Shown: one piece after another, positions 3,155-22,138 of the stretch
Layout: each line of letters opens with the position of its first letter
How positions within the stretch are numbered: the first letter of the stretch is position 1
Translations under genes and position numbers: made by a program
The notes under the pieces: generated by a model
Databases searched by the model: none
The model's input: the letters and a program-made list of their open reading frames with translations, nothing else
Told to the model about the DNA's origin: nothing
IMG/VR virus record: IMGVR_UViG_3300051212_000271
Span: 1 to 26,633 of that record
DNA: 26,633 bases
From: a virus
Direction: 5' to 3' (one strand)

Positions 3155-6100
3155 TTAGGCTCCCATTAATGCAAATGTTCTTGTCCAATAACTGCCACTT
3201 GTAACAATATCCCCGGTCTCACTGGTTAGGCTCTTACCTAATACTTGATTACCAGTTAGTGTTCCATCATATGCTAGTACTGTGGTTGTATCAATTTTAT
3301 AGACTTTTCCTGCTGCTAGATCAAAGTTATCACTTGATGTCCAAGCAGGTGTATTTTTAACCCATCTTAATGTTTTGTTATCGCCTGTAGATGCCTTTAT
3401 AGTAATTCCACCCTGATCGGCTGTACTATCACTTGCTCCGCTTACATCAAATGTTATAGATCCAAGAGTATTATTATTATCAGCCTTAAAGGTAAATTGC
3501 GTTGCACTATTTATTTGGGTTACTACTGCGTTTGTGCCAAATGCTCCCACTCCACCAGTTTTGGTTAGCGTCATACCAGGAATCATTCCATCAGTGGTGC
3601 TTGGAGCAGTCATTGTCACAGTACTTGAACTAGCGGTCACAGAATTAATTGTACCAACTTTACCAGTCATTGCTGATACTGATCCTAGTTCAATATTATT
3701 ATCACTCATGCGTATATCATAAGCAGTTAATGTGCTTACGCTACCACTTTGACTGATGTTACCTAATACTGTAAGATCATTCACTGTGATATTAGTACTC
3801 CATTGTGGAGCACTACCTGTACTGGTCATAATATAGTTGGCAGAACCTATAGCTAACTTTGCTAGGCTGGTAGAACCATTAGCATAGATAGTGTCTCCTA
3901 ATGTGTATCCAGTAATGTCTGTTCCACCTTTGGTAACTGGTTGTACGCTATGATTACTACTAGTCAATAGATATGTTAAATCTTTACCATCTATAGTTTT
4001 AGCATCAATAGTTCCACCTGATGTTGCCGGTGTTATATAAACCTGACCTGAAGTTGCTCCAGTTCCTACAGTAAATTGATCTTTCTTGAATTTAGCTACA
4101 CCTAAATTTGTATAAGGATCTAATGCCCCACTAAAAGCAGGATCACTATCCACTCTAGCTATATCCAATGTAACACTATTATAGAACTGATCTACTCCAC
4201 CTACAGTATTATAGCTACCTGTTAAACTTAAGGGACTATCTGTATTAGTTATTTTAATATTTTGTACAGCTTCTACCCAAGAACTATCACCTCTTAGGAA
4301 CGTATCACTACTAGCAATACCAGTAGTGGCTAATCTACTAGTATTCAATACTCCTGTGACTACATTACTAGCATCAATATTTGTAGTGCTGATACTGCTC
4401 CAGTTTAATATATTAGAACTTGAAGTATCAACAGTGCCAATTACTGTAACATTCTGTTCAGTAAAGGTAATTGTTCCTGAACCTGTATCGGTAAGATCAT
4501 AAGCAGTGGTTGTCAATCCATTTACACTGGTTAGGGCGCTAGATCTTGTTAAATGTAAAGAAAAGCTATTAGTTGTAACACTACCTAAGAAGAAAATATT
4601 GTTATCAGCATTGATACCAGTTGGCAATGATGAGCCTGTAATTTTAACTGGAGTACCTGTGCTAAAACCATGGTTAGCTAAAAATATAATATCATGACCA
4701 GAAATACTTGCTCTAACTGTTATTGCTTTTACAGTAAGAGTTTGATTACCTAAACCACTACTGGTAAAGCTAATTTTGTTACTCAAATAATAATTTGTGT
4801 AAAGTTCAATGGTATTAGCATCAATACTCTTGACAAAATACACTTCCCCGCCAATTAATCCACCTATGCCTTGAGCACCTACCACCGCATATGTTACTGG
4901 ATCTCCATCATCAAATGTATGGGCATTTATAGTGATTCTACTTGTTCCATAGTTTACATCTGTAGCGGCACTAAAGGTTGTAACTGTAGTGTCTGTGGCT
5001 GTTATATTTTGACTACTGGCATTAGCATCAGAGATATATTCGTTAGTGGCAGTAGTATTTCCTGCCTCAAATTTTAATCCGACGGGAATTTCCACATAAA
5101 GTCTATTTTGTACCGCACTAACTGGAATACTGAAATCAGTATTTGAAGTTCCGCCTACATCTGCTGGGTCGGCACTTAAAATATCACCAACGGCATATCC
5201 AGTTCCGCCTCTACGCATATCAACACTAATAACTACACCATTTTCTACTGTAATATCTGCTTTGGCTCCTGTGCCTGTACCTGTCACATTGGTCAATGAA
5301 ACCATTTCATATGTAACGGCCAAACCTGAAGCTGGTGTATATCCGTCTCCTGGTGTGAGGCTTAGATTATTAAGAGCATTGATTACGCCGTATTTGGTTT
5401 GTGTTACCGTTCCCTGCCCTTTATTAACAGCACCTGTAACTGTGGTAATACCAGTAAAATCATAAGTACCAGCTGGGTCTAATATTAAAAATTGTGTGCG
5501 TATTTCCTCACTTAATAGGAAGTTGCCTGTTTGCCCGGTATTAGTAGTACCAACCACTGTAGGAATAGCTCCTGTGCTGATACCATTAATACTGATAATA
5601 TTTGTTGTATTAAAATTAGCTGTAAATGTAAGATCAATACTGCCTACAATAATGTTGTTGTCATTATTGACATCGCCTACTAGGTAACCACTAGCACCAC
5701 TTACTGCTTGTTCTACTAGATCACCATTTGATCCAGTTATAGGATTGTCCAAAGTTATTTCAACTGTGCTGTAGGTTTCAGTAATTAAGTCGCCGTTTAA
5801 GATATTCTTTGGTGGCACATCCTCAATTAGTGTAAGCCTGTTTAAATACCCTTCACCTTTGTAAATTAAGAAATTTCTTACAGCAGGTATAAGGTCAGCA
5901 TTAATTTTACCGCTGCTATTGAGTTGAACAGCTGAGCCTGGTATACTATTTGTTGATAAATTCTTATCAATAAATTTACCTAGTCTAAACTGTAGGAAGT
6001 CACGAATGGCTTTTTGTGTGCTTAATCTACTATCCTTAGCACCGCCCATTTCATTGTCACCCAAACCAACGTCAGCACTTATTTCTTGAATAACAATGTT

Positions 6101-9100
6101 ACCAATTCTCAACTTCAATGTATCTAATTCTGCGATACTAACAGTATTAGTAAATGTTACATTACCTGTTTTGTTTTCAGCTTTAATAAAGTCGCCTACT
6201 TTGAAATCGCCTAATTCATTAGTACCTGAACTATATACACGACCTGGTAGATCACTAACTTGTTCATACTCTGGAATCGTTTTTCCACCATTTTGTGGCA
6301 GAGCATTATAATCTGTACCACTACCGGCATATTCCCATGTATGACCAGAACTGTTTACAATACTGGGACGATGTAACCATATTTGATTTTCTGGTAGATT
6401 ACCTTCGTTGGTTATTTCACCACCAGTTACAGTAGGACTTATTCTAAAGTTTGATGTATAAAGATCACTTCTATAATCTACATCAGCGGCAAATCCAATA
6501 TTAGTCTGTTGTGATGGTGATGTATGATCCTCATCAATCACACTGCTATTATTAAAATAATTTTTAACTGGCTGTTGTGTTATTGGGTCGACAAATTCTT
6601 CTATACTAACTATAAGTTTTCTAGTTGTTGAATCATAACTATACACATAGGCAAATATATCATTGTTATCACCATATACAGCTCTGCCTGGAATAAATTC
6701 ATAAACGCCTGGAACAAGCGTTAGTATTTGATAATCTGTATGAGTAGTTAATATATCATCAATAAAAAACTCTCGTACATTTTTTAGGAAAGCATGAGTT
6801 TCTGAAACAGGACGAGTACCTTTAATATCTACAATTGTAGTTAAACTATCATCAAGATACAATCCAAATGTATCTGCGTCTAAAACTCTAGCATAATAAG
6901 TTTGTTCATTATCTAAACCTAAAATTGCTGTATTACCATTTGAAATATAAACAAGTTTAGTTCCTTCTGTAATACCATGATTAGTAATAAGGAAAGTATT
7001 ACCGCCAACATCAACTACGCTGGCAGGGGTAAAACTTACAGTATCACTAGGATTGCTTGGTTTAAAATTACTGGTTATATCTCCAAAATTACTTGATTCA
7101 ATACTGGCTATTACTATTGTAGGAGTAGCAATAATATCTAATATATTATCAAATAGGCCATTTGATACTGTTTCTACTCCTAATGGTGTTAATAGTGTTT
7201 CTACTTCTAATTTTAGTTGTTGAATAGATGCTTCATGTTGTGCTAATTGACTGGTGAACCCAACGTCAGTACTCTCAACATATAAATAACCTGCTTCTAA
7301 TGTCTTGCTATTGCCACCAGATAATATGTCATAAGCTAGCGCATCTACCAAATAGCCTACATCCTCAGCACATTTTAGTGGATCATAAGTAAATCCATTC
7401 CATATACCAGTATTTGTTGCTATTTGTGCGTTTACCCAACCCACAATACTTACTTGTAATTCATCTTTGTTGGCTATTAATAGGTCACTGGCTCTTTTAA
7501 ATACTGGATTTCTAAATCTAATAACATAATCTTGTGTAGGAACTGATTTAAATCCTATAGCTTTAATTGTTTGTTGTGTTCCAGAGTCACCAGTACCAAC
7601 CACTATACCACGATCAAATTCAAAAGCATTAGGACTATATCCACTGGCTCTTAGAGCATACTTACCAAAGTTAGTTGCGCTATTAGTAACACTTAAATAA
7701 CCACCGCTTTGTGCGTAGCTGCCTACTGAACAGAAAATCTGGAAACAACTAACAATCTGTGCGTAGGCATCGTTAATCACACGCCAACCAGTGCCACCAA
7801 AGCTTAACATGGTAAATGCGTTGGCTACCATTGACTTACCCTGTTGTGGTATACTACCAAAAGGTGGATTTTCTGCTTCTATATTTGTAGGAGGCTTGTT
7901 AGGAGTATTAACTAAATTACCATCAATTAAAACACCACTACCACCTAAGAAACTGATAATAGAGCAATTTTGAATATATGGACTTATGGTAATTGTAGGC
8001 TTTTTACTAGGTAAATTAATATATCCTGTACGATTTGTTTCTGGATCTGATGGATCATCAAAACTCACAGCATAGTTAAATGTATGATAAGGTTTTTTAT
8101 CAACATCCAAATAATCTCTAAAAGTAATTTCTGTAAAATAACAGCCATTACGCACACGCAACATATCCTTGTTGGCATTTAATGGTCTGATATTACAGGC
8201 ACGTAAGCCAGCACCTACTACACTGACATTATCTGGAATAATAATTGGGTTGTCTTCTACGTAATCCCCACTGGCCACTGCGATTATTATACGTTTATCA
8301 TTTGGCACACCATTAACATCATACACTAGTCCACTGGCAATTTGTAGAGCACGTTTGATAGTGGCTACTGGCTTATTAATACCATCAAAATTATCATCAC
8401 CATAATCAGCACTAACAGAGACTTGACCTCCACCAAATAGATCTGGACTAATCCATTCTAGCTTATCACCGTCTGTGTTTAAGCTTAGTACATATCCGTC
8501 TAATCCCTTGACTCCTGGTAATGTGTATGTTGTATCCTGTACAAAATTAGCTGGAGCTTTGAATCCTATATAGGTTGGATTTACTGTGCCTTTTAGTTTA
8601 AGTATACCTTCATTATTGATAGTGATATTGTCTGCTTCAATATCTGTGGCATAGATATCAGCTGGTGTTGTAAGTCCAATAACGGTATCATCAATGTTAC
8701 CCGCATTAATATCTACAGTGGCCAGTGTACTAGTACCAGTTACGTCTAATGTACTAGACATAGTAACTGGGCCACTGACATCTAATGTACTAGTATCAAC
8801 ATTACCGGCAGTCATATCTCCAGTAAATGTACTAGTTCCTGTTACTGATAGTGTGCCTTCTATTACAGTATTTCCAGTAGTACCATCTACACTGAATATT
8901 GTAACAGGAGTAGCTGCCGAATTTTGAATAGTAAAATCAGAACTAGCACTTAGATTAACATTACCACTAAAGTCACTTGTAGCATTAACATCTAATGTAT
9001 CGTTTAAAGTTGTTGAACTTTCTACAGTCAGTGTTCCCTCTGTTAGAGTATTACCGTTAGTCTTATCTATGGTAAAAAATACATTAGGTATTGCGTTTAA

Positions 9101-12100
9101 ATCTTGTATAGTAAAGTTACCATTTAATGTTAGATCACCATTAATTTCAGCATCGCCGCTGGCATTAAATTCAGTAACATCTGTGCGCTCTAATGTGGTT
9201 ATTGTTTCTGGATCTCCAGGATTGGCTCTAATAACTTCAAAATTATTATGGAATGTACTAACACCATAAACATCTAATGTACCCTGTATGAGTACATTAC
9301 CACTAGCGGTAATATTACCGGCTGTCAAGTTGCCGCTGAAAGCAATAGCACCACCTACATTTAGACTACCTTCGATATCAGTATCACCAGTAGCTCCATC
9401 TACACTGAATACAGTGTTTGGAGTACCAGCTGCATCTTTCATTATAAAGTCTGCTGCTGAATTTATAGTTACATCGCTATTAAAATCACTAGTTCCATCT
9501 ACTTGTAGGTCATTGTTGATATTAGTAGTTCCAGTACTAGCACCAATTTCTACTGTAGTTGCTGCTCCGGCAAAATTCACTGTGGTAGCAGTAGTATTGA
9601 CTAGATTAAATGTTGTAGTGCTTACTGTTAGGTCGCCACCGTCAATATTGATATCACCATCTACATCTAAATTATTATTAACATTGGTTGTACCAGTACT
9701 AGCACCAATCTCTATAGTAGTTGCTGCTCCGGCAAAGTTTACAGTGGTAGCAGTAGTATTGACTAGGTTAAATGTTGTAGTACTGACTGTTAAGTCACCA
9801 CCATCAATATTAATGTCACCATCTACATCTAGGTCATTATTAACATTAGTAGTTCCAGTGCTAGCACCAATTTCTATTGTAGTAGCAGCACCGGCAAAGT
9901 TTACAGTGGTAGCAGTAGTATTAACTAAGTTAAAGGTAGTGGATGTAGTTGTTATATCCCCGCCATTAACAGCAAGATCACCGGTAACTGTTGCATTAAC
10001 ATCAACAGTTAAGGATCCGTTTACTAGAGCATCACCATCTACATCTAAGTCGTTATTGACATTAGTAGTTCCAGTGCTAGCACCAATTTCTACAGTGGTA
10101 GCAGCACCGGCAAAGTTTACAGTGGTAGCAGTAGTGTTAGCTAAATTGAATGTGGTAGTACTTACAGTTAGATCACCACCATCAATATTAACGTCGCCGT
10201 CTACATCTAAATTATTATTGACGTTAGTAGTTCCAGTGCTGGCACCAATTTCTACAGTAGTAGCAGCTCCGGCAAAATTTACAGTAGTAGCAGTGGTATT
10301 AACTAAGTTAAATGTTGTAGTGCTTACAGTTAAGTCACCACCATCAATATTGATATCACCATCTACATCTAGGTCATTATTAATATTGGTTATACCAGTG
10401 CTAGCACCAATTTCTACAGTAGTGGCAGCACCGGCAAAGTTTACAGTGGTAGCAGTTGTATTCACTAGATTGAAAGTAGTTGTGCTTACAGTTAAGTCAC
10501 CACCATCAATATTGACATCACCATCTACATCTAGGTCATTGTTAACATTAGTAGTTCCAGTACTAGCACCAATCTCTATTGTAGTAGCAGAACCGGCAAA
10601 GTTTACAGTGGTAGCAGTTGTATTGACTAGGTTAAAGGCAGTTTGATTTGTTGTTATATCCCCGCCGTTAACTTCTAAGTCTCCACCAATGCTTACGTTA
10701 CCAGTAGTATCTAATGTACTAGCATCAATATTACCGGCAGTCATATCCCCAGTAAATGAACTTGTTCCTGTTACACTTAGGTTGCCTCCAACATTCACAT
10801 CACCTGAACTACCTAAAGTGATTACTCCAACATTATCAGCATTAATATCGTTAGCTGTTATTGTGCCTGTAAAATTACTAGTTAACGCAACATCTAATGT
10901 TCCTGCTGTGCTTATATTACCAGTAGAGCCATCTATGCTAAACATAGTAGGAGTTTGTGTGACTCCGCCTATTACTTGTGGCAGTGCCTTAATTGTAAAG
11001 TCTGCTGCATCGCTTAGTGTAACATTGCTACTGAAATCACTAGGAGCGTTTACATCTAAATCATCGTTTAATGTAGTTGTTCCTGTTACAGTTAAATTAC
11101 CACCTATAAGAACATCACCAGTAGTTGATATTGTTCCAACACTAAAATTACTAGAAGTAAAAGTACCAGTGACATTGAGAGTACCTACAATGCTTGTATT
11201 ACCAGTGTCCCCATCTATACTGAAAACACTAGTTCCTGAACTATCTTTTACTTCAAAATCTGATGCGTTACTTAAAACAACATTACCACTGAAGTCACTG
11301 GGGGCATTTACATCTAAATCATCGTTTAGTGTTGTTGTTCCTGTTACAGTTAAGTTACTACCAATGCTTACGTTACCAGTAGTATCTAGTGTACTAGCAT
11401 CAATGTTACCGGCAGTCATATCACCGGTGAATGTACTAGTACCTGTTACTGCTAAGGTACCAGTCATTGTGGTATTGCCACCAATGCTTACATCGCCTGT
11501 AGTATCCAATGTACTAGCATCAATATTACCGGCAGTCATGTCACCAGTGAATATGCTAGTTCCTGTTACTGCTAATGTACCACCAATGCTTACGTTACCA
11601 GTAGTATCTAGTGTACCAGCATCAATGTTACCTGCTGTCATGTCCCCAGTGAATGTACTAGTTCCTGTTACATTGAGAGTGCCACCAACGAATGTATCAC
11701 CAGTAGCTCCATCTACACTGAATACAATAATTGGTGTAGCTGCCGAATTGTATATAGTAAAATCTGCTGCTGCGCTGATAGTAACATTATCACTAAAGTC
11801 ACTGGCTGCATTTACATCTAATGGATCATTTAAGGTTGTCTGTCCAGTTACTTCTAAATTACCTGTAACTGATACATTACCAGCAGTCATGTTACCAGTG
11901 AATGTACTTAATCCATCCACGTTTAAGTCTAAATCTACATCTAAATTATGGTTAATATTTGTGGTGCCAGAACCAGCACCAATTTCTATTGTAGTAGCAG
12001 CACCAGCGAAATTTATAGTGGTTGCTGTATTGTTTAGTAAATTAAATGTAGTTTGATTAGTCTTAAAGTCACCACCGTTTACTGATAGATCACCACCTAC

Positions 12101-13642
12101 GGTAACATCCCCAGTAGTGTCTAAGGTAGTGGCATCTATATCATCTACTGACAAATCACCGGTGATGGCCAAATCACCAGTAATGTCCACATCCACTGCG
12201 GTAAGTTTACCAGTAAAATCACTAGTTCCATTCACAGTCAATGTACCATCAATATAAGTATTACCTGAAGTAGTTTCAACAGTAAATCTTGTAGATGCTA
12301 ATGCTAATGTAGAACCGTTATAATTTAAATTGGGGGCACTAATATTACCTGTAAAGTCAGCAGTGCCTGCCACTGTAAGATTACCACCGATTGCCACATC
12401 ACTTGTGGTATTCAAAGTATCAGTATTAATTACAGTAGCATTAACATCTCCAGTGAATAAAGCATCAGTACCATCAGTTCCATTATCTAATACTATACTA
12501 GATCCATCACTGGCTACCACATCACCTTGGAGATATCCATATACTGTGCCGTCTAGGTCACCATGGAATTGATTACTGGCATAGATATCAGTTCCACGAA
12601 TAGGCCTAGCCGTTGTTTTACCTATTTCGGTATTGTCTATTTCACCGCCATTGACATCAATATTTGAAAAGCTGCTTGTTCCTGTACTTGTTATATTACC
12701 TGTAACATTGCCTGTAAATATAGCATTAGTTCCGTCTGTGCCATTTTCTAATATCTTACTTGTTCCATTGTCAGCATAGACATCACCAATTAATCCACCA
12801 GTAGCAGTTCCTTGTACGCTGCCATAAAATACAGCATCACTACCATTAGTTCCATTTTCTAATATCTTACTGGTTCCATTAGCAGCATAGACATCACCTT
12901 TTAAATTACCATTAAAGTCACCGTTAAATTGTGTAGCATTAATAGTGGTTCCGTTTATTGTTGTTCCAGTTATAGCAGCAGGGTTATTTGCTCCAATTAT
13001 TGCGCCATCAATTGCCCCACCGTTTACATCAATATTACTAAATGTGCTAGTACCGGTACTGGTTACATTACCAGTTACACTGCCAGTGAATACAGCATTA
13101 GTGCCAGTGGTGCCATTCTCTAAAATCTTAACACCATTGGAGCTGTAGACATCTCCAATTAAATCACCAAAAACATTACCAGTTAAATTACCTGTAACAT
13201 CGGATACAACTTCATCTTCAATAATGATACGGTCAGCTCTAAATTCACCTCCTATATTAAGATTACCGGTAATACCAACACCACCTTGGACTACTAGTGT
13301 TCCTGAAAACGGATCTAGACTTTCTATTCCCGAATCTAATAGTGTATTAATACCAACCTTCATTAGGCCAGTGCTTAGAGTAACTGTTTCTAAACCTTCA
13401 TTGACTATATAGATGATGCCCTCATCGGCTCCTTCACCAATCTCTATATATGTATTTTCATTTATACTAGCAATAGATCCAGTGTTAATAGCATACTTAA
13501 CAGAATCCCATGCATCAACACCGTTACCAATTTTGATATTTTTAGTGGTAAGATCTACGGCAACTTCACCCTGTGCCAGTACAGGGTTAATTCTTTCCCA
13601 GTTAGATTTAGTATCGCGTCTTAGTTGAATCCTTTTTGCCAT
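3155..13642 (-). CDS. Giant tail fibre protein, 3,495 aa
   Basis: Residues 1 to about 50 (MAKRIQLRRDTKSNWERI..., with LAQGEVAVD, IKIGNGVDAW) match the pattern of the phage tropism-determinant N-terminal domain (Mtd_N type), which attaches fibres to the baseplate. Residues about 50-1730 are repeats rich in TGTSTFTGDMTAGN, TLDTTGNVSIGG and NNDLDVDGD motifs, expected to form a long beta-helical or trimeric shaft. From about 1735 a pectate-lyase-like beta-helix segment begins (SADYGDDNFDG, IIIPDNVSVVGAG), to about 2010. The remainder is further globular and beta modules, with a short coiled coil (TSQLAQHEASIQQLKLEVE), ending FALMGA. No lytic active site is obvious. The start has a GGAGA ribosome binding site, a late promoter and a structured leader. 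It likely determines host range. The 10.5-kb frame is intact, which argues for strong selection and good sequence quality. Confidence 0.92.
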   Translation of the reverse strand: MAKRIQLRRDTKSNWERINPVLAQGEVAVDLTTKNIKIGNGVDAWDSVKYAINTGSIASINENTYIEIGEGADEGIIYIVNEGLETVTLSTGLMKVGINTLLDSGIESLDPFSGTLVVQGGVGITGNLNIGGEFRADRIIIEDEVVSDVTGNLTGNVFGDLIGDVYSSNGVKILENGTTGTNAVFTGSVTGNVTSTGTSTFSNIDVNGGAIDGAIIGANNPAAITGTTINGTTINATQFNGDFNGNLKGDVYAANGTSKILENGTNGSDAVFYGSVQGTATGGLIGDVYADNGTSKILENGTDGTNAIFTGNVTGNITSTGTSSFSNIDVNGGEIDNTEIGKTTARPIRGTDIYASNQFHGDLDGTVYGYLQGDVVASDGSSIVLDNGTDGTDALFTGDVNATVINTDTLNTTSDVAIGGNLTVAGTADFTGNISAPNLNYNGSTLALASTRFTVETTSGNTYIDGTLTVNGTSDFTGKLTAVDVDITGDLAITGDLSVDDIDATTLDTTGDVTVGGDLSVNGGDFKTNQTTFNLLNNTATTINFAGAATTIEIGAGSGTTNINHNLDVDLDLNVDGLSTFTGNMTAGNVSVTGNLEVTGQTTLNDPLDVNAASDFSDNVTISAAADFTIYNSAATPIIVFSVDGATGDTFVGGTLNVTGTSTFTGDMTAGNIDAGTLDTTGNVSIGGTLAVTGTSIFTGDMTAGNIDASTLDTTGDVSIGGNTTMTGTLAVTGTSTFTGDMTAGNIDASTLDTTGNVSIGSNLTVTGTTTLNDDLDVNAPSDFSGNVVLSNASDFEVKDSSGTSVFSIDGDTGNTSIVGTLNVTGTFTSSNFSVGTISTTGDVLIGGNLTVTGTTTLNDDLDVNAPSDFSSNVTLSDAADFTIKALPQVIGGVTQTPTMFSIDGSTGNISTAGTLDVALTSNFTGTITANDINADNVGVITLGSSGDVNVGGNLSVTGTSSFTGDMTAGNIDASTLDTTGNVSIGGDLEVNGGDITTNQTAFNLVNTTATTVNFAGSATTIEIGASTGTTNVNNDLDVDGDVNIDGGDLTVSTTTFNLVNTTATTVNFAGAATTVEIGASTGITNINNDLDVDGDINIDGGDLTVSTTTFNLVNTTATTVNFAGAATTVEIGASTGTTNVNNNLDVDGDVNIDGGDLTVSTTTFNLANTTATTVNFAGAATTVEIGASTGTTNVNNDLDVDGDALVNGSLTVDVNATVTGDLAVNGGDITTTSTTFNLVNTTATTVNFAGAATTIEIGASTGTTNVNNDLDVDGDINIDGGDLTVSTTTFNLVNTTATTVNFAGAATTIEIGASTGTTNVNNNLDVDGDINIDGGDLTVSTTTFNLVNTTATTVNFAGAATTVEIGASTGTTNINNDLQVDGTSDFNSDVTINSAADFIMKDAAGTPNTVFSVDGATGDTDIEGSLNVGGAIAFSGNLTAGNITASGNVLIQGTLDVYGVSTFHNNFEVIRANPGDPETITTLERTDVTEFNASGDAEINGDLTLNGNFTIQDLNAIPNVFFTIDKTNGNTLTEGTLTVESSTTLNDTLDVNATSDFSGNVNLSASSDFTIQNSAATPVTIFSVDGTTGNTVIEGTLSVTGTSTFTGDMTAGNVDTSTLDVSGPVTMSSTLDVTGTSTLATVDINAGNIDDTVIGLTTPADIYATDIEADNITINNEGILKLKGTVNPTYIGFKAPANFVQDTTYTLPGVKGLDGYVLSLNTDGDKLEWISPDLFGGGQVSVSADYGDDNFDGINKPVATIKRALQIASGLVYDVNGVPNDKRIIIAVASGDYVEDNPIIIPDNVSVVGAGLRACNIRPLNANKDMLRVRNGCYFTEITFRDYLDVDKKPYHTFNYAVSFDDPSDPETNRTGYINLPSKKPTITISPYIQNCSIISFLGGSGVLIDGNLVNTPNKPPTNIEAENPPFGSIPQQGKSMVANAFTMLSFGGTGWRVINDAYAQIVSCFQIFCSVGSYAQSGGYLSVTNSATNFGKYALRASGYSPNAFEFDRGIVVGTGDSGTQQTIKAIGFKSVPTQDYVIRFRNPVFKRASDLLIANKDELQVSIVGWVNAQIATNTGIWNGFTYDPLKCAEDVGYLVDALAYDILSGGNSKTLEAGYLYVESTDVGFTSQLAQHEASIQQLKLEVETLLTPLGVETVSNGLFDNILDIIATPTIVIASIESSNFGDITSNFKPSNPSDTVSFTPASVVDVGGNTFLITNHGITEGTKLVYISNGNTAILGLDNEQTYYARVLDADTFGLYLDDSLTTIVDIKGTRPVSETHAFLKNVREFFIDDILTTHTDYQILTLVPGVYEFIPGRAVYGDNNDIFAYVYSYDSTTRKLIVSIEEFVDPITQQPVKNYFNNSSVIDEDHTSPSQQTNIGFAADVDYRSDLYTSNFRISPTVTGGEITNEGNLPENQIWLHRPSIVNSSGHTWEYAGSGTDYNALPQNGGKTIPEYEQVSDLPGRVYSSGTNELGDFKVGDFIKAENKTGNVTFTNTVSIAELDTLKLRIGNIVIQEISADVGLGDNEMGGAKDSRLSTQKAIRDFLQFRLGKFIDKNLSTNSIPGSAVQLNSSGKINADLIPAVRNFLIYKGEGYLNRLTLIEDVPPKNILNGDLITETYSTVEITLDNPITGSNGDLVEQAVSGASGYLVGDVNNDNNIIVGSIDLTFTANFNTTNIISINGISTGAIPTVVGTTNTGQTGNFLLSEEIRTQFLILDPAGTYDFTGITTVTGAVNKGQGTVTQTKYGVINALNNLSLTPGDGYTPASGLAVTYEMVSLTNVTGTGTGAKADITVENGVVISVDMRRGGTGYAVGDILSADPADVGGTSNTDFSIPVSAVQNRLYVEIPVGLKFEAGNTTATNEYISDANASSQNITATDTTVTTFSAATDVNYGTSRITINAHTFDDGDPVTYAVVGAQGIGGLIGGEVYFVKSIDANTIELYTNYYLSNKISFTSSGLGNQTLTVKAITVRASISGHDIIFLANHGFSTGTPVKITGSSLPTGINADNNIFFLGSVTTNSFSLHLTRSSALTSVNGLTTTAYDLTDTGSGTITFTEQNVTVIGTVDTSSSNILNWSSISTTNIDASNVVTGVLNTSRLATTGIASSDTFLRGDSSWVEAVQNIKITNTDSPLSLTGSYNTVGGVDQFYNSVTLDIARVDSDPAFSGALDPYTNLGVAKFKKDQFTVGTGATSGQVYITPATSGGTIDAKTIDGKDLTYLLTSSNHSVQPVTKGGTDITGYTLGDTIYANGSTSLAKLAIGSANYIMTSTGSAPQWSTNITVNDLTVLGNISQSGSVSTLTAYDIRMSDNNIELGSVSAMTGKVGTINSVTASSSTVTMTAPSTTDGMIPGMTLTKTGGVGAFGTNAVVTQINSATQFTFKADNNNTLGSITFDVSGASDSTADQGGITIKASTGDNKTLRWVKNTPAWTSSDNFDLAAGKVYKIDTTTVLAYDGTLTGNQVLGKSLTSETGDIVTSGSYWTRTFALMGA
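9495..10660 (-). repeat. 162-nt (54-aa) tandem repeats in the giant fibre
   Basis: The landmark caccaat recurs at 9541, 9703, 9865, 10081, 10243, 10405 and 10567. Spacing is 162 nt except one interval of 216 nt, which holds a 54-nt (18-codon) insertion. Each unit encodes NLVNTTATTVNFAGAATT, VEIGASTGTTN and a DLDVDGDVNIDGGDLTV segment. A diverged eighth copy lies near 11977 and residue-level relatives continue beyond. Protein identity between units is higher than DNA identity. Confidence 0.92.
10690..11680 (-). repeat. Interspersed TFTGDMTAGNIDASTLDTTG modules
   Basis: Four near-copies of a segment encoding TGTSTFTGDMTAGNIDA followed by STLDTTGNVSIGG occur here, around 10700-10760, 11385-11440, 11500-11560 and 11600-11660, with a related copy near 8790-8840. 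They alternate with a longer module encoding LNDDLDVNAPSDFSGNV and a TGNTSIVGTL-type stretch. The arrangement reads as higher-order shuffling of short shaft cassettes rather than one simple tandem array. Confidence 0.8.
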
Positions 13643-13723: not shown

Positions 13724-14014
13724 TTAGCTTAATGCTATTCCTGAGGTTCTGCTCAAGTACTGTTTCGCTATTTCACCGTCGGTTTTAGCGTAAGAAATAA
13801 TATTTGTTTTGAATACTGTGTATTCCTGATCTGGGTCAACAGTAAACATATAAGGAACCATACCCATACCTTGTGGGTTCATCATTAGAACATTAGGTTT
13901 GGTTATATAAAAATTTGTGTCATCTTCACGTAAAAATCTGCCTAATATTTCCTCTCCACTGGATATTTTAAAACTGATTACATCATTCTCTGTAAATTTT
14001 TTCGTCAATAGCAT
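13724..14014 (-). CDS. Small Sm-like-fold candidate protein, 96 aa
   Basis: A 96-aa protein with the pattern VISFKISSGEEILGRF, DDTNFYITKPNVL and a YTVFKTNIISYA stretch. Alternating short beta strands around SGEEILGRF are reminiscent of the Sm/LSm barrel (RNA- or protein-binding), but I cannot confirm this from residues alone. Its ATG shares one base with the glutaredoxin stop (TAATG), so it is translationally coupled to the nrd operon and is its last gene. I recall similar small proteins of unknown function in T4-like aquatic phages. A function in nucleotide metabolism is not implied beyond co-transcription. No clear terminator follows, so nrd transcripts may run into the fibre gene. Confidence 0.75.
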   Translation of the reverse strand: MLLTKKFTENDVISFKISSGEEILGRFLREDDTNFYITKPNVLMMNPQGMGMVPYMFTVDPDQEYTVFKTNIISYAKTDGEIAKQYLSRTSGIALS

Positions 14015-14247
14015 TATGCTGCCTCTTTTAAATATTTTTGTAGCTCTGTATATCCACCAATGAGTTCATCATTAATAAAGATTTGTGGTACTGTACGTGC
14101 TGTTGGCACTGATTCTAATAGATCTTCTTTAGTATATCCGTCACCTATTTTACGTTCTTCAAACTCTATGCCTTTTTGTTGTAATAAAGACTTGGCCATA
14201 TCACAATAGGGACAATGATACTTACTCCATACGATTGCTTTTGACAT
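14014..14247 (-). CDS. grx: Glutaredoxin, 77 aa
   Basis: A full glutaredoxin/thioredoxin-fold protein. It has the dithiol active site CPYC at residues 12-15, the cis-proline segment TVPQIFIND at 52-60 and the GGYTEL turn at 64-69 that in the family contacts glutathione or substrate. It would reduce the disulphide formed in the ribonucleotide reductase large subunit at each turnover, fitting its place directly after nrdB. The start chosen is the ATG at 14247-14245 (MSKAIVWSK), because GAGGAAAAC precedes it at good spacing and it lies 7 nt past the nrdB stop. An upstream in-frame ATG at 14292 would add 15 residues overlapping nrdB and is unlikely. Length matches phage glutaredoxins. Confidence 0.93.
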   Translation of the reverse strand: MSKAIVWSKYHCPYCDMAKSLLQQKGIEFEERKIGDGYTKEDLLESVPTARTVPQIFINDELIGGYTELQKYLKEAA

Positions 14248-14254
14248 GTTTTCC

Positions 14255-15355
14255 TCACATTGTTGGTAGTTCATCATAGTTAATAGCGTCACTCATAACG
14301 CCTATAACATAATTAGTTGATTCGTTTTCCTGTAGTGCTGTTTGCTTCTTACTAGTATCGCTATGCTTGTTAAACCATGGAATTGGATTAGTCTTGACTG
14401 TAGTAACATACTTAAGCCCAATATCCTTTAGTCCAGTCAATGCTGTATAATCTACAAACTCTTTTAGTATATTAGCATTGAGACCGATCACAGGACCTTT
14501 CTTAAACAAATAATCTGCCCAGGCTTTTTCCTCACGTATAACATCCATATACAATGCATATACTTCTTGCTCGCATTCTTGTTTGGCCTTGGCAAATCTT
14601 GGATCTTCCTTGACCACTTGGTTAATAAGCCAAGCCGTCCATCCTTTGTGTAATAGTTCATCCTGTAGGATTAGACTGATAATATTGCCATTGCCAATAA
14701 AGATTTTATTCTCTACCATGGCTAGGCTTGTGGCAAACGATACCATAAAGCGGAAGGCTTCTAGTGCGTAACTGGCATTAAGTGCTAGCCAAATTGCTTT
14801 AATATGCTCTTGTTCGCTTACTAACATCTCACCTATTTCTTTTTGACAATTTAACTTATGTAGGTAATCATAATACTTTCCTACGCTACTAGCCATATCT
14901 ACTATCTCTGCTGTATCGTGTATAGTATTGAATACATCTTTGGGTACATTGTAGATGTTACGAATAATATGACTATAACTGCGACTATGAATATTAGTCT
15001 CAAAGAATGTCCAGTTATAGACCAAAGCCTCTAACTCTGGTAATGATATTATCGGAGTAAAGATTTGACTGGGGCCACGTCCTTGTAGGCTATCCAATGC
15101 TGTTTGACGCAGTAGATTACTGGTGAATATGTGCTTGACTGCTTCACTAGCATCTTTAAAGTCTTGTGCATCTTTAACTAGACTGATCTCTTCTGGTACC
15201 CAAAAGAAACCACGTGCTGTTTTTTCATAGTCTGCTATTTTATTATATTTGACTTCCTCAAATCTCTGTATGGTAACAGGTCCTTGTGGATCAAGGAACA
15301 TCTTACGATGTAGGTAGTCTGTCTTTGTCTGTAGGTTGTATTGTTGTTTGCTCAT
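14255..15355 (-). CDS. nrdB: Ribonucleotide reductase class I small subunit
   Basis: The 366-aa R2 subunit, which houses the metal-radical cofactor used by NrdA to make deoxyribonucleotides. Aligning by eye to E. coli NrdB: first ligand Asp88 (ALDSLQGR), Glu119 and His123 (FFETNIHSRSYSHI), radical Tyr127, then Glu199 (LEAFRF), Glu233 and His236 (DELLH). Spacing agrees with E. coli everywhere except Glu119 to His123, which is ExxxH where the family has ExxH. The start ATG at 15355 overlaps the nrdA stop (ATGA); an in-frame ATG six codons earlier lies inside nrdA and is less likely. The C-terminal peptide ends NYDELPTM, an acidic tail of the kind that docks to R1. Confidence 0.96.
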   Translation of the reverse strand: MSKQQYNLQTKTDYLHRKMFLDPQGPVTIQRFEEVKYNKIADYEKTARGFFWVPEEISLVKDAQDFKDASEAVKHIFTSNLLRQTALDSLQGRGPSQIFTPIISLPELEALVYNWTFFETNIHSRSYSHIIRNIYNVPKDVFNTIHDTAEIVDMASSVGKYYDYLHKLNCQKEIGEMLVSEQEHIKAIWLALNASYALEAFRFMVSFATSLAMVENKIFIGNGNIISLILQDELLHKGWTAWLINQVVKEDPRFAKAKQECEQEVYALYMDVIREEKAWADYLFKKGPVIGLNANILKEFVDYTALTGLKDIGLKYVTTVKTNPIPWFNKHSDTSKKQTALQENESTNYVIGVMSDAINYDELPTM

Positions 15356-17688
15356 AATATGCAGGAATCGCAATCCTCTTCTAGTTCTATTTCTAATAAT
15401 TCTAACTTGGGCTCTACGTGATGTCCATTAGTTTGCTCAGGATCCATCCTTGAACCCTGCTTATTGATTAGGCTGTAGTAGAATGTCTTAATACCCCACT
15501 TGTGAGCCTGCATCAAATTCTTTGCTATCAATGTAGTAGGCACTTTACGATCTGCGTAGTGTGCTGGATTATAAAATGTGTTGGTGCTTATGCTTTGATC
15601 CACATAGGCAGCAAGCACAGCAGCAGTCTTAATATAACCTACGCAGTCTGTTTGTTCCCACATCAATTGATATTTGTTCTTAAGTTTATGATACTCTGGA
15701 ACTACCTGTGTAAATGATCCTGCTTTACTTTCTTTAGTACTGATCAAACTCATAGGTAGTTCAATGCCATTAGTACTATTGATAACTACACTGCTACTTT
15801 CCACAGGAGCAATGGCCATCAATGTAGCATTACGCACGCCATATTGTTTGGCCTGTTCTCTTAGTACTTCCCAGTCAAGTTCAGGAGTAAAGTCTGCTAG
15901 TTCATTCACGCCTTTGGCTCTACGTTCCCAAGGGAATATGCCCTGACCATAATAAGTTTTATCACTATGCTTACAGGCACCACGCTCCTTGGCTAGTTCA
16001 ATAGTTGCTTCTGTCAAGTAGTAGGCCTGATGTTCCATCCAACTCTTAACTTCACTAAGAGCAGCAGGTTCACCATACTTTAATCCTCTCTTGGCGTGCC
16101 AGTAGGCTAAGTTAGTAACACCAATGCCTAATGGTTGTATTTCGTCATTGCTTAACTTACTCTGTATGCTTAGATAATCTTGATAATCAAGTATGTTACA
16201 AAGACTGCGCTGAAGTATACGGCAAGCACGGCGCAGATCCTCAGGATGCTTGAACATTCCCCAGTTGATTGACCCCAAGGTGCATAGAGCAATGCGGCCT
16301 TTTTCGTCGTCGAGCCTCTTAAATGGCAGTGTAGGGAGGAGGATCTCACAGCATAGGTTACTTTGATATATGGTATGGTAGTCTGGATCAAACGGTCCTT
16401 GGTTCATTACATTATCTATAAACACAAGATATATGCGACCAGTATCCGTACGCTCTTTTAGAATACCTCCCTTGAATACTTCCTCAGCACTGATTGTCTT
16501 TTTTCTCAGTCCTGGTGTGTTTTCATATTTAACATATAATTCTTCAAATAATTCTATGTCTTTATAAAATGCTTCATAAAGATCAGGCAGTTCATTAGGG
16601 TCGAAGAATGTTATGTTTCCTTGTTCTCTGAATCTTCTCCAGAAGAAACTACTAAGGATAACCCCATAATCGAGATGACGGACGCGGGTCTCTTCGGTTC
16701 CTTGATTGTTTTTAAGTACAATAAGATCATCAAACTGATAATGCCATATAGGATAAAAAACTGTAGCGCTAGCATTGCGTATGCCCCCTTGACTGCAACT
16801 ACGCAAGTCACCAAACCATTTCTTGAGGAAGGGCAGCATACCTGTATGCATGATCTCACCACCTCTAATAGGACTGCCTAAAGGCCTTACTCGTCCTACT
16901 TCTAAGCCTATGCCTGCTCGTTTGCTGGCATATTTAGCCATCATTTCTCCGCTAGCAAAAATACTGTCAAGATCATCATCGCTGCGTATGAGTACACAAC
17001 TACTGAACTGCTTAGTGGGAGTGCCAAGCCCAGCAAGAACAGGAGTAGCGAGAGTGAATAAGCCGTCTGAAGCCGCATCATAATAATCCTTAATATAACG
17101 CATACGAGCCTTATTGGGCTCTTCCCGATGAAACACAGTGGCAGCGGCAATCATATAGCGTACCTGTGGTGTTTCATATATTTCTTTTGTACTACGATTT
17201 TTGACTAGATACTTTTCAATAAGTTGTTCAATAGCAGCATAACTATACTCTTGATCCTTGTCGTGATCAAGCATATCATTCATCTTGTTCCAGTCTGCTT
17301 CACTATACCATTCTAATAGTTCTTTGGTATATAAACCAGTAGCAATATTACGCTTGACTATATCGTATAAATGTGGAATAGTACTACTACCATATACATC
17401 CTTACGCAGCATATGATAACGCTGTCTACCTGCTACATATTGATAGTTAGTGTGTCCAATATCTGGGTTTGATTCCACATCAATCAAATCTACAATGGCA
17501 CGTAGAGTGATGTTATCAATTTCCTTAGTGCTTATTCCATCGTAGAAATGTGGGTTGCTACGTATTTCAATCATACTTTGGCTAACATCAGAAACACCTT
17601 GGCATATTCTACTGACCTGAGCTTGCCATTTAGCAAGATCCAATGCTTCTCTGCTACCATTTCTTTTAACTACTGTGATATTACTCAT
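15352..17688 (-). CDS. nrdA: Ribonucleotide reductase class I large subunit
   Basis: The 778-aa R1 catalytic subunit. All key residues are present by comparison with E. coli: Cys231 and Cys469 (the redox pair, in QFSSCVL and ALCTLGSINWG), Asn444, the thiyl Cys446 and Glu448 in SNLCCEI, the adjacent tyrosines of the radical pathway in KTFYYS, and a C-terminal Cys773/Cys776 shuttle (DCDSC) for re-reduction by glutaredoxin. Residues 1 to about 100 form an ATP-cone-like N-terminus (VVKRNGSREALDLAK). It leads the operon nrdA-nrdB-grx-96 aa with a 4-nt overlap to nrdB. A weak early-type promoter lies just upstream, but no clear ribosome binding site precedes the ATG. An extra cysteine (Cys447) sits next to the catalytic one. 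Confidence 0.97.
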   Translation of the reverse strand: MSNITVVKRNGSREALDLAKWQAQVSRICQGVSDVSQSMIEIRSNPHFYDGISTKEIDNITLRAIVDLIDVESNPDIGHTNYQYVAGRQRYHMLRKDVYGSSTIPHLYDIVKRNIATGLYTKELLEWYSEADWNKMNDMLDHDKDQEYSYAAIEQLIEKYLVKNRSTKEIYETPQVRYMIAAATVFHREEPNKARMRYIKDYYDAASDGLFTLATPVLAGLGTPTKQFSSCVLIRSDDDLDSIFASGEMMAKYASKRAGIGLEVGRVRPLGSPIRGGEIMHTGMLPFLKKWFGDLRSCSQGGIRNASATVFYPIWHYQFDDLIVLKNNQGTEETRVRHLDYGVILSSFFWRRFREQGNITFFDPNELPDLYEAFYKDIELFEELYVKYENTPGLRKKTISAEEVFKGGILKERTDTGRIYLVFIDNVMNQGPFDPDYHTIYQSNLCCEILLPTLPFKRLDDEKGRIALCTLGSINWGMFKHPEDLRRACRILQRSLCNILDYQDYLSIQSKLSNDEIQPLGIGVTNLAYWHAKRGLKYGEPAALSEVKSWMEHQAYYLTEATIELAKERGACKHSDKTYYGQGIFPWERRAKGVNELADFTPELDWEVLREQAKQYGVRNATLMAIAPVESSSVVINSTNGIELPMSLISTKESKAGSFTQVVPEYHKLKNKYQLMWEQTDCVGYIKTAAVLAAYVDQSISTNTFYNPAHYADRKVPTTLIAKNLMQAHKWGIKTFYYSLINKQGSRMDPEQTNGHHVEPKLELLEIELEEDCDSCIL

Positions 17689-19454: not shown

Positions 19455-19463
19455 GTATTTATC
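19455..19463 (-). promoter_or_regulatory. T4-type late promoter (GATAAATAC)
   Basis: The minus-strand box GATAAATAC overlaps the TGA stop of the exonuclease gene (19464-19462) and lies 18 nt before the 568-aa fibre ATG. The short leader contains only the AAGGGGAAA ribosome binding site. The box is identical to the one before the giant fibre, suggesting co-timed late expression of the two fibres. Confidence 0.8.
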
Positions 19464-20178
19464 ACAGGATCGTGTAGTATTCTTCTACCCTATCAAACCA
19501 ACGATGACTCCAATAATCAAAGTCTTTACTCTCTAGTACAAATTGTTGATACTGTGGTTCTCCCCATTGTCCAGGGCTAGTTTCTGGGGGTCTAACACAC
19601 ATCATTATAACACCTTTGCGTATGTTTGTACCATACACAGCATTATGAGCTAGGGCATAAGCAGTGATCTGTAAGTAATAATCCTCAATCCATTCTAATT
19701 TTTTAGGTTTGTTAGTTTGTTTGAAGTCTAAGATGCTGGGTTCGCCGGCATGCATACCCACACAGTCTGTAGTGCCGGCATAAAGTTCTGGATAGTATAA
19801 TGGAACTTCGTTACCCCAGATCTCATCAATACCACCAAAACCCTCATCAATAACCTTTTTGGCCATTAACAAACTTTGTTGGGCATATGGATTGCTTACA
19901 CTATCTTTGATGCCTTCGCCTTTGATATAGCGTTCTAGGAAGGTATGCATCCTAGTACCACGGGCAGCGGCTTCTGTAGTAATAGCCTGTGCTTGTGCGT
20001 GGCCAACACGATTACGCCACTCCTTTAAGGCCTGTTTAGCCTCTTCTGGTTTGGTCTTGTCTAGTATAGTTGTTACACTGGGTACTCTACTACCATCTGG
20101 ACAAGCATATAATCTTTTGCCTGCTTGCTCTTCTCTGGTTAAGTTCTTGTATTCGTATATAGGATTTAGTAATGTCAT
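19462..20178 (-). CDS. PD-(D/E)XK exonuclease, RecB/MGME1-like
   Basis: A 238-aa nuclease with the ordered motifs of the RecB-like PD-(D/E)XK superfamily: GTRMH (Gly74...His78), Glu124 in NEVPLYY, Asp138 in AGTTD, Asp151-x-Lys153 in ILDFKQ, and the helical QxxxY motif Gln170...Tyr174. The family degrades DNA ends in recombination, replication or host DNA turnover; comparable exonucleases are annotated in T4-like cyanophages. It sits between structural genes but has its own consensus early promoter, so it is probably expressed before them. The start at 20178 coincides with the predicted transcription start, and no ribosome binding site fits between, so the mRNA from this promoter may be leaderless. 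Confidence 0.88.
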   Translation of the reverse strand: MTLLNPIYEYKNLTREEQAGKRLYACPDGSRVPSVTTILDKTKPEEAKQALKEWRNRVGHAQAQAITTEAAARGTRMHTFLERYIKGEGIKDSVSNPYAQQSLLMAKKVIDEGFGGIDEIWGNEVPLYYPELYAGTTDCVGMHAGEPSILDFKQTNKPKKLEWIEDYYLQITAYALAHNAVYGTNIRKGVIMMCVRPPETSPGQWGEPQYQQFVLESKDFDYWSHRWFDRVEEYYTIL

Positions 20179-20184
20179 CTCGCT

Positions 20185-20212
20185 ATTATACTATTTTTTA
20201 TTATTTTGTCAA
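20185..20212 (-). promoter_or_regulatory. Consensus early promoter for the exonuclease
   Basis: On the minus strand TTGACA (20212-20207), a 16-nt AT-rich spacer and TATAAT (20190-20185). Both hexamers are perfect and the spacing equals that of the two plus-strand promoters at 24468 and 25188. The -35 shares bases with the TGA that ends the frameshift extension. The predicted start of transcription is at about 20178, the A of the exonuclease ATG. Confidence 0.85.
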
Positions 20213-20532
20213 CGTCTTCGGTTAAGTGCGCTCTTTGCCATACTTTTTGTAAGGTTACCTGCGTTGGGATCACCACCTGACTGTGATGGCATTTCTGATG
20301 CACTAGTCTTTAATTTTACACCTTGTGGATCAAAGCTACATATTTCAGCAAAGCTAGGATTGGCTTCAAAACGTGGACCAAATTTGCTAGGGCTGTCTAT
20401 ACGTTGCCCTAGCACATTTTGTGTTAAATTGCCTAATGCGTTCCAATTGATTACTTCTGGATTGCCTGCACTATCAGCAGCATTACGTTTGGCTACTAAT
20501 AGATCAAATAACTTATCTTGATTTTCAGTTAC
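20209..20532 (-). CDS. -1 frame extension of the 317-aa protein, 107 codons
   Basis: Directly after the A9 run, the -1 frame is open for 107 codons (VTENQDKLFDLLVAKRNAAD... to ALNRRR, TGA at 20211-20209). Its codon choice and composition look like its neighbours, so it reads as real coding sequence. It has no ATG near its beginning; the only plausible start is a GTG at 20415-20413 with no ribosome binding site, giving 68 aa. In this frame there is a stop 9 codons upstream of the run, so the extension can only be reached in full by slippage in the run. A fused product would be 424 aa. The alternative is a one-base homopolymer error, since A10 would fuse the frames. Confidence 0.7.
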   Translation of the reverse strand, partial: VTENQDKLFDLLVAKRNAADSAGNPEVINWNALGNLTQNVLGQRIDSPSKFGPRFEANPSFAEICSFDPQGVKLKTSASEMPSQSGGDPNAGNLTKSMAKSALNRRR

Positions 20533-21482
20533 TTTTTTTTTGTAAGTATGGCTGCTAGTCTACGGCTATATTCAGCTGTCTCACGCATAGCACGACCAGC
20601 TGCTCCTTCTTCACCGCCAGCAGCGGCGCCTAGTTCATCTTCCATACCAGCTGCGGCATCAGGAGCTCCTACTTCTGGAGGTCCCATACCAGCAGGACCT
20701 GCCATACCTAAGCCTGCTCCGCCTGGTGCTTCTGTGCCTGTTAATACACTAGTGGCCTGTGCTAGTAATTGACGATTCTTTTCTAGTGCCAAATAAATTT
20801 CATCCAGTGCTGGTCGAACTGTTTGTTCAAAACTAGTACTGACATCTGTGCCCATTTCATCTCTTATAGAGTCTAATAAATCTAACATGGCTTCGGACTT
20901 CATACTTGCTACGTCCTCTAGCCAGCCTGTGATACGATCTGTCATGTCCTTTGCGGCCATGATCAATTCTGCCTTTTCTTCTTCGCCTTCTGTTAAGCGC
21001 AGATCACGAACAACACCCTTGGCTGTTGTCTCATCTAGGTCATAACGAATAATTAGTTCGCTGACTACTTCCTCATCAGCATCACGCTCTAACATTAAAC
21101 GCTGGCGTGCGTTGGCCTTCCATTGTTCTGGGAATCTATAACTACGTAGTCTACGCTGTGCCTGATGATATTCTTTTAAACTTTTTGCCTTGCGCTCTTT
21201 TTTCTTCTCTTCGGCCTTTTCGCCATTTTCTTCACGCTCAGCGATCTCTTGATTGATTACGTCAAGCATACGTTGGTTCTTTTGATATTTGTGATCTTCC
21301 AATACACTGTCATAACTATTAACACTTTCAAATTGACTTTGCTCTGTGCGTAGTTTATTTCTAGCATCGTATAACTGTTCCATTGTGAACTTTTCTAATG
21401 CTATTTTATAGCCAAATTGACGGCCTAAATTTTCATTTAATTTCTTGCTGGTAATGGGTTTTTGAAGATCATTGATGTTCAT
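20529..21482 (-). CDS. Coiled-coil virion/assembly protein, 317 aa (0-frame product)
   Basis: The start is MNINDLQKPITSKKLNENLG with a conserved-looking N-terminal domain (GYKIALEKFTMEQLYDARNKL), then a charged coiled-coil region (residues about 75-120, EIAEREENGEKAEEKKKERK), further helices, and an Ala/Gly/Pro-rich tail (residues about 245-300) before RRLAAILTKKK. The layout recalls structural or scaffold-type proteins of T4-like cyanophages; I cannot assign a T4 gene number. A late promoter overlaps the preceding gene's stop and AGGA precedes the ATG. The final codons AAA AAA AAG are followed at once by TAA and form a -1 slippery site, so this may be only the shorter of two products. Confidence 0.82.
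   Translation of the reverse strand: MNINDLQKPITSKKLNENLGRQFGYKIALEKFTMEQLYDARNKLRTEQSQFESVNSYDSVLEDHKYQKNQRMLDVINQEIAEREENGEKAEEKKKERKAKSLKEYHQAQRRLRSYRFPEQWKANARQRLMLERDADEEVVSELIIRYDLDETTAKGVVRDLRLTEGEEEKAELIMAAKDMTDRITGWLEDVASMKSEAMLDLLDSIRDEMGTDVSTSFEQTVRPALDEIYLALEKNRQLLAQATSVLTGTEAPGGAGLGMAGPAGMGPPEVGAPDAAAGMEDELGAAAGGEEGAAGRAMRETAEYSRRLAAILTKKK
20532..20541 (-). other. Slippery A9 run, A_AAA_AAG then stop
   Basis: On the minus strand nine A residues (20541-20533) followed by G give the in-frame heptamer A_AAA_AAG at 20538-20532, the same heptamer used for -1 frameshifting in E. coli dnaX, immediately followed by TAA. A run of nine A also suits transcriptional slippage. I see only a weak possible downstream stem (TAACT...AGTTA) and no upstream Shine-Dalgarno stimulator, which makes polymerase slippage at least as likely as ribosomal frameshifting. 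Confidence 0.7.
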
Positions 21483-21503: not shown

Positions 21504-21512
21504 ATATTTATC
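21504..21512 (-). promoter_or_regulatory. T4-type late promoter (GATAAATAT)
   Basis: The minus-strand box GATAAATAT spans the TAA stop of the 146-aa gene (21510-21508) and lies 21 nt before the ATG of the 317-aa gene. A second TAAATA follows shortly downstream (CTTAAATATTAG) but is a poorer match. Confidence 0.72.
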
Positions 21513-21948
21513 TGAATGCGTAATTAAACGCCTGAGTTATTTCTTGCTTGTAATAGTCAGCACGATCACGACTTTGTTCATAACGCCATAAGAATACATC
21601 ACGTTTGACTTCGTCTTTGGTATACTTATACCGTTCTTTAAAATGTGTACTATCTACGTAGCTGCTCCAATAGCGTTGATCCAAATCTCTTATACGATAC
21701 ATGGCCATTATTTGATTATATCTATGCTGCTTTGCTGCCATTAGTGCGCTACTCTTTAGGTAAAAACTGGCTATATTGTTTCTAAGACGTTTACCCACTT
21801 GAATAAGATCCCACTGACCAAACTTATTTTTTTTAATAATATAATTGTTATAGGCTACACTGCCGTCATCTAATATCACGGCAGGCATTATTTTGTTTAC
21901 GTCAGTGAGTAATTTATTGAACTTGGTTACTGCTCTGTCTATAGTCAT
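21508..21948 (-). CDS. Conserved-looking small phage protein, 146 aa
   Basis: I do not recognise a named family. The protein is basic and aromatic-rich. An N-terminal helical part (RAVTKFNKLLTDVNKIMP) is followed by a beta segment (VAYNNYIIKKNKFGQWDLIQ) that looks like a short fold-conserved stretch, then long charged helices with many Tyr/Arg (YRIRDLDQRYWSSYVD, FLWRYEQSRDRADYYKQE). The start at 21948 overlaps the end of the 74-aa gene by 35 nt with GGTAGTGG before it. It lies in the late block between a 74-aa protein and the 317-aa coiled-coil protein, so a virion or assembly role is likely but unproven. Confidence 0.75.
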   Translation of the reverse strand: MTIDRAVTKFNKLLTDVNKIMPAVILDDGSVAYNNYIIKKNKFGQWDLIQVGKRLRNNIASFYLKSSALMAAKQHRYNQIMAMYRIRDLDQRYWSSYVDSTHFKERYKYTKDEVKRDVFLWRYEQSRDRADYYKQEITQAFNYAFR

Positions 21949-22138
21949 TGGCCACTACCTTTGGATTAACACTGCCTATCTTAATTAATAAACTTTTTCT
22001 AATTAAGTTCTCTGCTACGTGTTGTTCACGTTCTGGTAACATACTTAGCAGAGTTGGCCTATCTAATCGCTTCAATAAGGCACGCTCTTCATTGGTAGTG
22101 AAGATTTCAAAGCTACGTACAAGTTCGTTTATTTTCAT
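21914..22138 (-). CDS. Small phage protein, 74 aa
   Basis: MKINELVRSFEIFTTNEERALLKRL... is a helical protein; the pattern RSFE.fTTNEER...L and a later ENLIRKSL look like a conserved small-protein family that I associate with aquatic T4-like phages, of unknown function. The sequence is consistent with a helix-turn-helix-like bundle or winged-helix (EERALLKRLDRPTLLSML, AENLIRKSLLIKIG), but no DNA-binding claim is made. Its ATG overlaps the stop of the 195-aa gene (ATGA) and its end overlaps the 146-aa gene by 35 nt, so the three are translated as a coupled set. Confidence 0.75.
   Translation of the reverse strand: MKINELVRSFEIFTTNEERALLKRLDRPTLLSMLPEREQHVAENLIRKSLLIKIGSVNPKVVANDYRQSSNQVQ

Follow-up and report, generated by a model that had tools for sequence, protein, structure and literature searches.

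A putative programmed frameshift site in a virion-type gene of T4-like jumbo phages

Does a phage gene that ends in a run of adenines and a stop codon yield one product or two? The question was raised by 26,633 nucleotides of the IMG/VR virus record IMGVR_UViG_3300051212_000271 (positions 1 to 26,633; this whole stretch is referred to as the window), in which a long open frame begins where a 317-aa gene ends.

Two reading frames at a run of nine adenines

The 317-aa gene lies on the minus strand (20529..21482) and ends in ACA AAA AAA AAG TAA (protein end ...LTKKK*), with its zero-frame stop TAA (20529..20531, minus strand) placed directly after AAG. The run of nine A occupies 20541-20533 in the direction of the gene (20533..20541, minus strand; TTTTTTTTT on the plus strand) and is followed by G at 20532. 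In the zero-frame register, the last six A of the run and this G form the heptamer A_AAA_AAG (20538-20532, minus strand), which follows the slippery pattern X_XXY_YYZ, and A_AAA_AAN is kept in relatives with the -1 register. The run also has the length (about nine or more A or T) at which transcriptional slippage is considered, and relatives carry A8-A11 except for three with A6G. No other run of at least nine A or T exists in the 26.6-kb window.

Immediately after the run, the -1 frame is open from GTA at 20532 to TGA at 20211-20209, giving an extension of 107 codons plus the stop (20209..20532, minus strand; VTENQDKLFDLL...NRRR*, that is, VTENQDKLFDLLVAKRN...SALNRRR with the stop at 20209-20211). 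The other two frames over this stretch contain 10 and 16 stops, and the probability of 110 open codons arising by chance was estimated to be ~4e-4 from base composition. An earlier note, made from the letters of the window, had described the 317-aa end within nine A and the 107-codon frame, and both were exact when the run and the ORF were recounted. Its remark that no ATG lies near the beginning of the extension also holds, with the minor correction that two in-frame ATGs exist, both late. The earliest usable start is a GTG at 20415, at about codon 40, and the first 40 codons are shown to be out of reach of any start codon of their own. A -1 shift at A_AAA_AAG or an extra A in the mRNA would give the identical 424-aa fusion.

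The start-less part of the extension bears the marks of coding sequence. Between the window and its relative L004, the codons before the GTG differ at 3, 1, and 18 sites at positions 1, 2, and 3, respectively, with 16 synonymous and 3 nonsynonymous codons, and this predominance of third-position change argues that the start-less part is translated; its codons (1-41, up to the first GTG) are under purifying selection. Among near relatives of the window, conservation is higher in the extension than in the main part, and distant members of the family show the extension's pattern as well. Comparison among relatives shows both reading frames to be conserved coding sequence, the downstream one being reachable only by a shift.

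The gene, its carriers, and the predicted fold of the extension

The 317-aa protein matches PHROG 14154 (virion structural protein, head and packaging) with an E value of 4.8e-11 over residues 161-252 only, and the family profile matches gp044 of phage Atu_ph07 (NC_042013) with an E value of 1e-16. The two genes have a homologous core and lie among corresponding neighbours in unchanged order (gp046, gp045, gp044 ... gp035); the matches to gp046 and gp045 are weak. Upstream in the window are genes of 146 aa (21508..21948, minus strand), placed as gp045 (E 0.014), and of 74 aa (21914..22138, minus strand), placed as gp046, which is annotated as a virion structural protein (E 0.003). Downstream is a PD-(D/E)XK nuclease gene (19462..20178, minus strand) homologous to the gp035 exonuclease (E 1e-47). 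In the published Atu_ph07 work, mass spectrometry is reported to have detected 29 virion proteins encoded in CDS 31-76, a cluster that includes gp044 (PMC6102473); that gp044 itself is a detected virion protein is taken from its RefSeq name. Unlike the present gene, gp044 encodes 771 aa, has another C-terminus, has no A9 at its end, and has no detectable homologue of the extension. Directly after gp044, in the extension's place, lies gp043, a gene of 128 aa (L190:10243-10629) with no significant sequence match to the extension; it is a possible remote counterpart.

A T4-type portal was found in five of six large contigs carrying the family and Gp23 in two of ten, which identifies the carriers as T4-like phages; the contigs reach 400 kb. 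The gene is one of T4-like jumbo phages, and its product is similar to an Atu_ph07 virion protein. Among INPHARED phages, tblastn searches with the two parts of the window's gene (the extension query being 108 aa) and with one relative (L033) returned no match. A match obtained there in cyanophages with another relative (L030) covered a short inserted DUF6321-like stretch and did not represent orthologues. Pfam returned nothing for the 317-aa part or the extension. Matches of the extension in Bacteroides phages, at E 2, were set aside as noise, and a second weak match to it in a 383-kb contig was to another protein.

Structure prediction gave a helical 317-aa part with a long low-confidence linker ahead of the A-run, for which a PDB structure search found generic long helices only. 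The extension was predicted by AlphaFold2 to fold as H-E-H-H-H-E-E with a mean pLDDT of 71. Its structural neighbours are nearly all winged-helix domains (reference topology H-S-H-H-S-S), with weak scores (best Z 5.0), and the extension is predicted from this model to be winged-helix-like, probably a winged-helix domain.

Three other regions of the window, all on the minus strand, were noted. Positions 1-238 encode collagen-like QGTTGS repeat units, cut off by the end of the contig, which probably belong to a tail fibre or a protein of that sort. Positions 3155-13642 hold an ORF of 3495 aa full of near-identical internal repeats (e.g., TTFNLVNTTATTVNFAGAATT), a giant fibre-like protein. An overlapping cluster at 14014-17688 appears on inspection to encode the large and small subunits of ribonucleotide reductase and then a glutaredoxin.

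Junctions among relatives

Scans of IMG/VR, in which the protein or alignments built from its relatives served as queries, yielded several locus sets; one scan alone returned at least 537 relatives. After removal of duplicates, 146 distinct junctions remained, one of which lay at a contig edge, and the other 145 were classified. The extension follows in the -1 frame behind 8-10 A at 130 of them (exactly nine A at 114) and behind a minimal A_AAA_AAG (A6G) at three (L159, L181, and L185). At four junctions (L037, L038, L039, and L257) it follows A10 or A11 in the other frame (+1 register), and at eight it has its own ATG. At none of the 145 are the two parts joined in one frame.

Aligning homologues at the junction, as the earlier note had proposed, bears directly on the competing explanation which that note had named, a one-base homopolymer error or mutation in one gene whose frames A10 would fuse. 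That the window has a single 424-aa gene, broken by an error of sequencing or assembly or by an inactivating mutation private to it, is exceedingly improbable: such errors do typically fall in homopolymer runs, but a fused frame is found in no relative, and many metagenome assemblies made separately retain A9, at protein identities as low as about 35-45%. In the A10/A11 clade, the register is unchanged despite a substitution at the run start (TTC-A11 in L037, TTCC-A10 in L038 and L039), which speaks against an assembly slip there. The earlier proposal of slippage giving 317- and 424-aa forms, by a dnaX-type shift or by transcription on A9, is borne out by about 140 related junctions.

The run is conserved while its surroundings vary. 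The base that follows it may be G, C, or A (giving A10-T), and the distance from the run to the zero-frame stop ranges from 0 to 22 nt. Elsewhere in these genes, KKK is written AAA AAA AAR in only 6 of 91 triplets. Of the A≥9 runs in 757 kb of fetched loci, 136 lie at the junction and one lies elsewhere; whole large contigs contain zero to five runs of exactly nine A, both strands summed. These comparisons show the run to be under selection. Some loci carry further runs or phases: a second A7 follows the main run in L052, and L240 has, near 1810, an A9 in a different codon phase (AAT AAA AAA AAA GTT TAA), the extension nevertheless being in the -1 frame. In L066, L077, L091, and L160, a second run of eight or nine A lies ~48 nt before the one used, at the slip-site position of L032-L035, suggesting relocation or duplication of the slip site in these four.

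The earlier note had counted an extension encoded as a separate gene with its own start as evidence against slippage. Such ATG-started ORFs do occur, in eight contigs (L030, L031, L051, L075, L085, L106, L176, and L180) and in some with an SD-like sequence; on the other hand, the A-run is absent in seven of them, and the eighth, L051, has only A6G, beside an ATG with an SD-like sequence before it. L051 had been considered as a short slippery site and was assigned to the own-start class because of these signals. We read the eight contigs as likely reaching the same domain by another route. Scored against slip on the tree, own start requires four changes. L030/L031, the outgroup-like pair, is own-start, and the own-start clades within the family are nested among slip clades; A-run and own start appear to replace each other. 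That the extension is a separate gene, expressed from an unusual start codon within it or by ribosomes that re-initiate past the stop, would agree with these eight relatives and with the GTG at codon 40 in the window. This explanation is nevertheless very improbable, as the stretch ahead of that GTG is conserved, start-less coding sequence in the window and its near relatives, and the absence of the run from seven own-start contigs and its shortening to A6G in L051 are what would be expected if the two interchange.

Downstream RNA structure and the mode of frame change

We propose that most ribosomes would read ACA AAA AAA AAG TAA and release the 317-aa protein, and that a fraction would enter the -1 frame on the A-run and read 107 more codons, giving a 424-aa form with an extra C-terminal domain. 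Both forms would share the helical N-terminal part, and a set ratio between them, serving the virion or its assembly, is probable. We infer the product ratio, the role of the long form, and the mainly ribosomal nature of the shift (-1 at A_AAA_AAG), the last because a related clade has a covarying stem. The whole proposal, i.e., a programmed frame-change signal with two products made mainly by ribosomal -1 shifting, is given a probability of roughly 0.7. For the family as a whole, a programmed frame change is nearly certain, and ribosomal shifting is likely to be its main mechanism; for the window's own clade, we put the ribosomal share at slightly better than even. The earlier note had left the choice between ribosome and polymerase undecided, and ribosomal -1 shifting is now well supported for the family and less clear in the window's clade.

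The related clade in question, from freshwater, has a 9-bp stem starting 8 nt after the slip codon. In its alignment (37 sequences, 34 distinct), 96.1% of cells were paired, and seven of the nine pairs showed compensatory changes on both sides. None of 500 shuffles was as good, a test that is inflated by sequence relatedness; weight was therefore placed on the slid controls, in which pairing dropped to 31-43%, and on the number of different pair types. The predicted geometry is the usual one for -1 ribosomal frameshifting. Furthermore, over the first 60 nt after the site, all slip-type loci had a mean z of -1.73 relative to shuffled sequence, compared with -0.09 to -0.29 in control windows. 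With protein and codon use fixed by synonymous recoding, the slip class scored -1.53 (n=90) and the own-start class -0.49 (n=8). The three minimal sites (L159, L181, and L185) have a strong adjacent stem.

The structure is different in the window's clade. An 11-bp hairpin with a 10-nt loop (CUAUUAGUAGC / GCUGCUGAUAG; 20471..20502, minus strand; z -2.42) was predicted, starting 29 nt after the slip site, which exceeds the usual spacer. It is the sole supported hairpin there, with 94.5% of cells paired and three compensated pairs; it is weakened in L002-L004, a slide of +3 is nearly equal on covariation, and its role is uncertain. A local hairpin right at the slip site (GUAACU...AGUUAU) was rejected, as it lacks conservation in relatives. 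No upstream SD-like stimulator was found in the window, and no local drop in synonymous change was found at the extension in this clade.

The main rival is transcriptional slippage, in which RNA polymerase would stutter on nine template T and some mRNAs would carry A10, or lack two A, and be read straight through. Runs of 8-11 A are kept in almost every member, although A6G would be enough for a ribosome, and A9 is an efficient slip length in vivo for bacterial polymerase (PMC5009743). A single mechanism acting on RNA length would also cover both the -1 register and the +1 register of the A10/A11 clade (L037-L039 and L257), which is sister to the window's clade (joint-clade support 96) and is unexplained by -1 shifting at A_AAA_AAG. 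Little RNA structure adjoins the run in L178/L182, L062, L130, L132, and part of the window's clade. However, RNA structure should be irrelevant to a polymerase, yet the freshwater clade keeps its covarying stem 8 nt behind the run and structure is seen in that region across the slip class; the three A6G runs would be too short without special context. We regard slippage by polymerase as an unlikely overall explanation. In the window's clade it is kept as a serious rival because of the A10/A11 sister clade, the distant hairpin, the missing SD-like stimulator, and the in vivo slippage on A9.

Known systems offer parallels for both. The dnaX site is A_AAA_AAG with a usual stem spacer of 5-9 nt, and in a reversed bacterial dnaX variant the shift gives the longer product and the zero-frame stop lies directly after the site (PMC5009743). 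The present site shares the heptamer and the -1 direction with E. coli dnaX (tau/gamma), the adjoining stop with the reversed arrangement (PMC5009743), and, in the freshwater clade, a stem-loop with the usual spacing. It differs from E. coli dnaX in belonging to a phage virion-type gene, in having A9 rather than A6, in the stem 29 nt away in the window's clade, and in lacking the upstream SD-like stimulator, which is present there but not required. Transcriptional slippage in Thermus thermophilus dnaX likewise involves nine A/T and two products with a common N-terminus (PMC5009743). Unlike the present case, its long product is the zero-frame one; furthermore, many relatives here keep a downstream stem that would be superfluous for transcription.

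As with lambda-type tail assembly chaperones G/GT, a phage morphogenesis gene would here be shifted by -1 close to its end, but the gene belongs to a virion-protein cluster of another type, and no Pfam or PHROG match to G or T was found. Frameshifted structural proteins are known from T7 (gene 10A/10B), Listeria phage PSA (cps and tsh), and Lactobacillus phage A2 (head protein). The likeness would be that of a virion protein with a minor C-terminally extended form made by frameshifting; the proteins and their shift sites are different, and the present gene is another one, in T4-like jumbo phages.

Another reading, which we hold tentatively and at somewhat less than even odds, is that one family reaches the same two products by several routes. 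Certain clades would use ribosomal -1 shifting aided by a stem-loop, a second group (among them the window's own clade and the A10/A11 sister clade with its other register) would rely on slippage of polymerase along A9-A11, and still others would have a separate gene. If true, the family would be a natural series on how recoding signals arise, switch mechanism, and disappear.

Phage structural proteins made by frameshifting are a known kind, as are A_AAA_AAG sites. In the open-licence papers searched, no description of this site was found, and the gene, its record across the family, and its series of variants appear to be new. With the proposed shift, mainly ribosomal, a virion-type gene of T4-like jumbo phages would gain a recoding site that is conserved and apparently undescribed; the family numbers well over 500 in IMG/VR. 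Annotation pipelines will overlook the second product or label it a frameshift error. The family provides matched natural variants (A6G with a stem, A9 with a stem, A9 without one, A10/A11 in the other register, and own start), which let the roles of run length, RNA structure, and register be tested directly.
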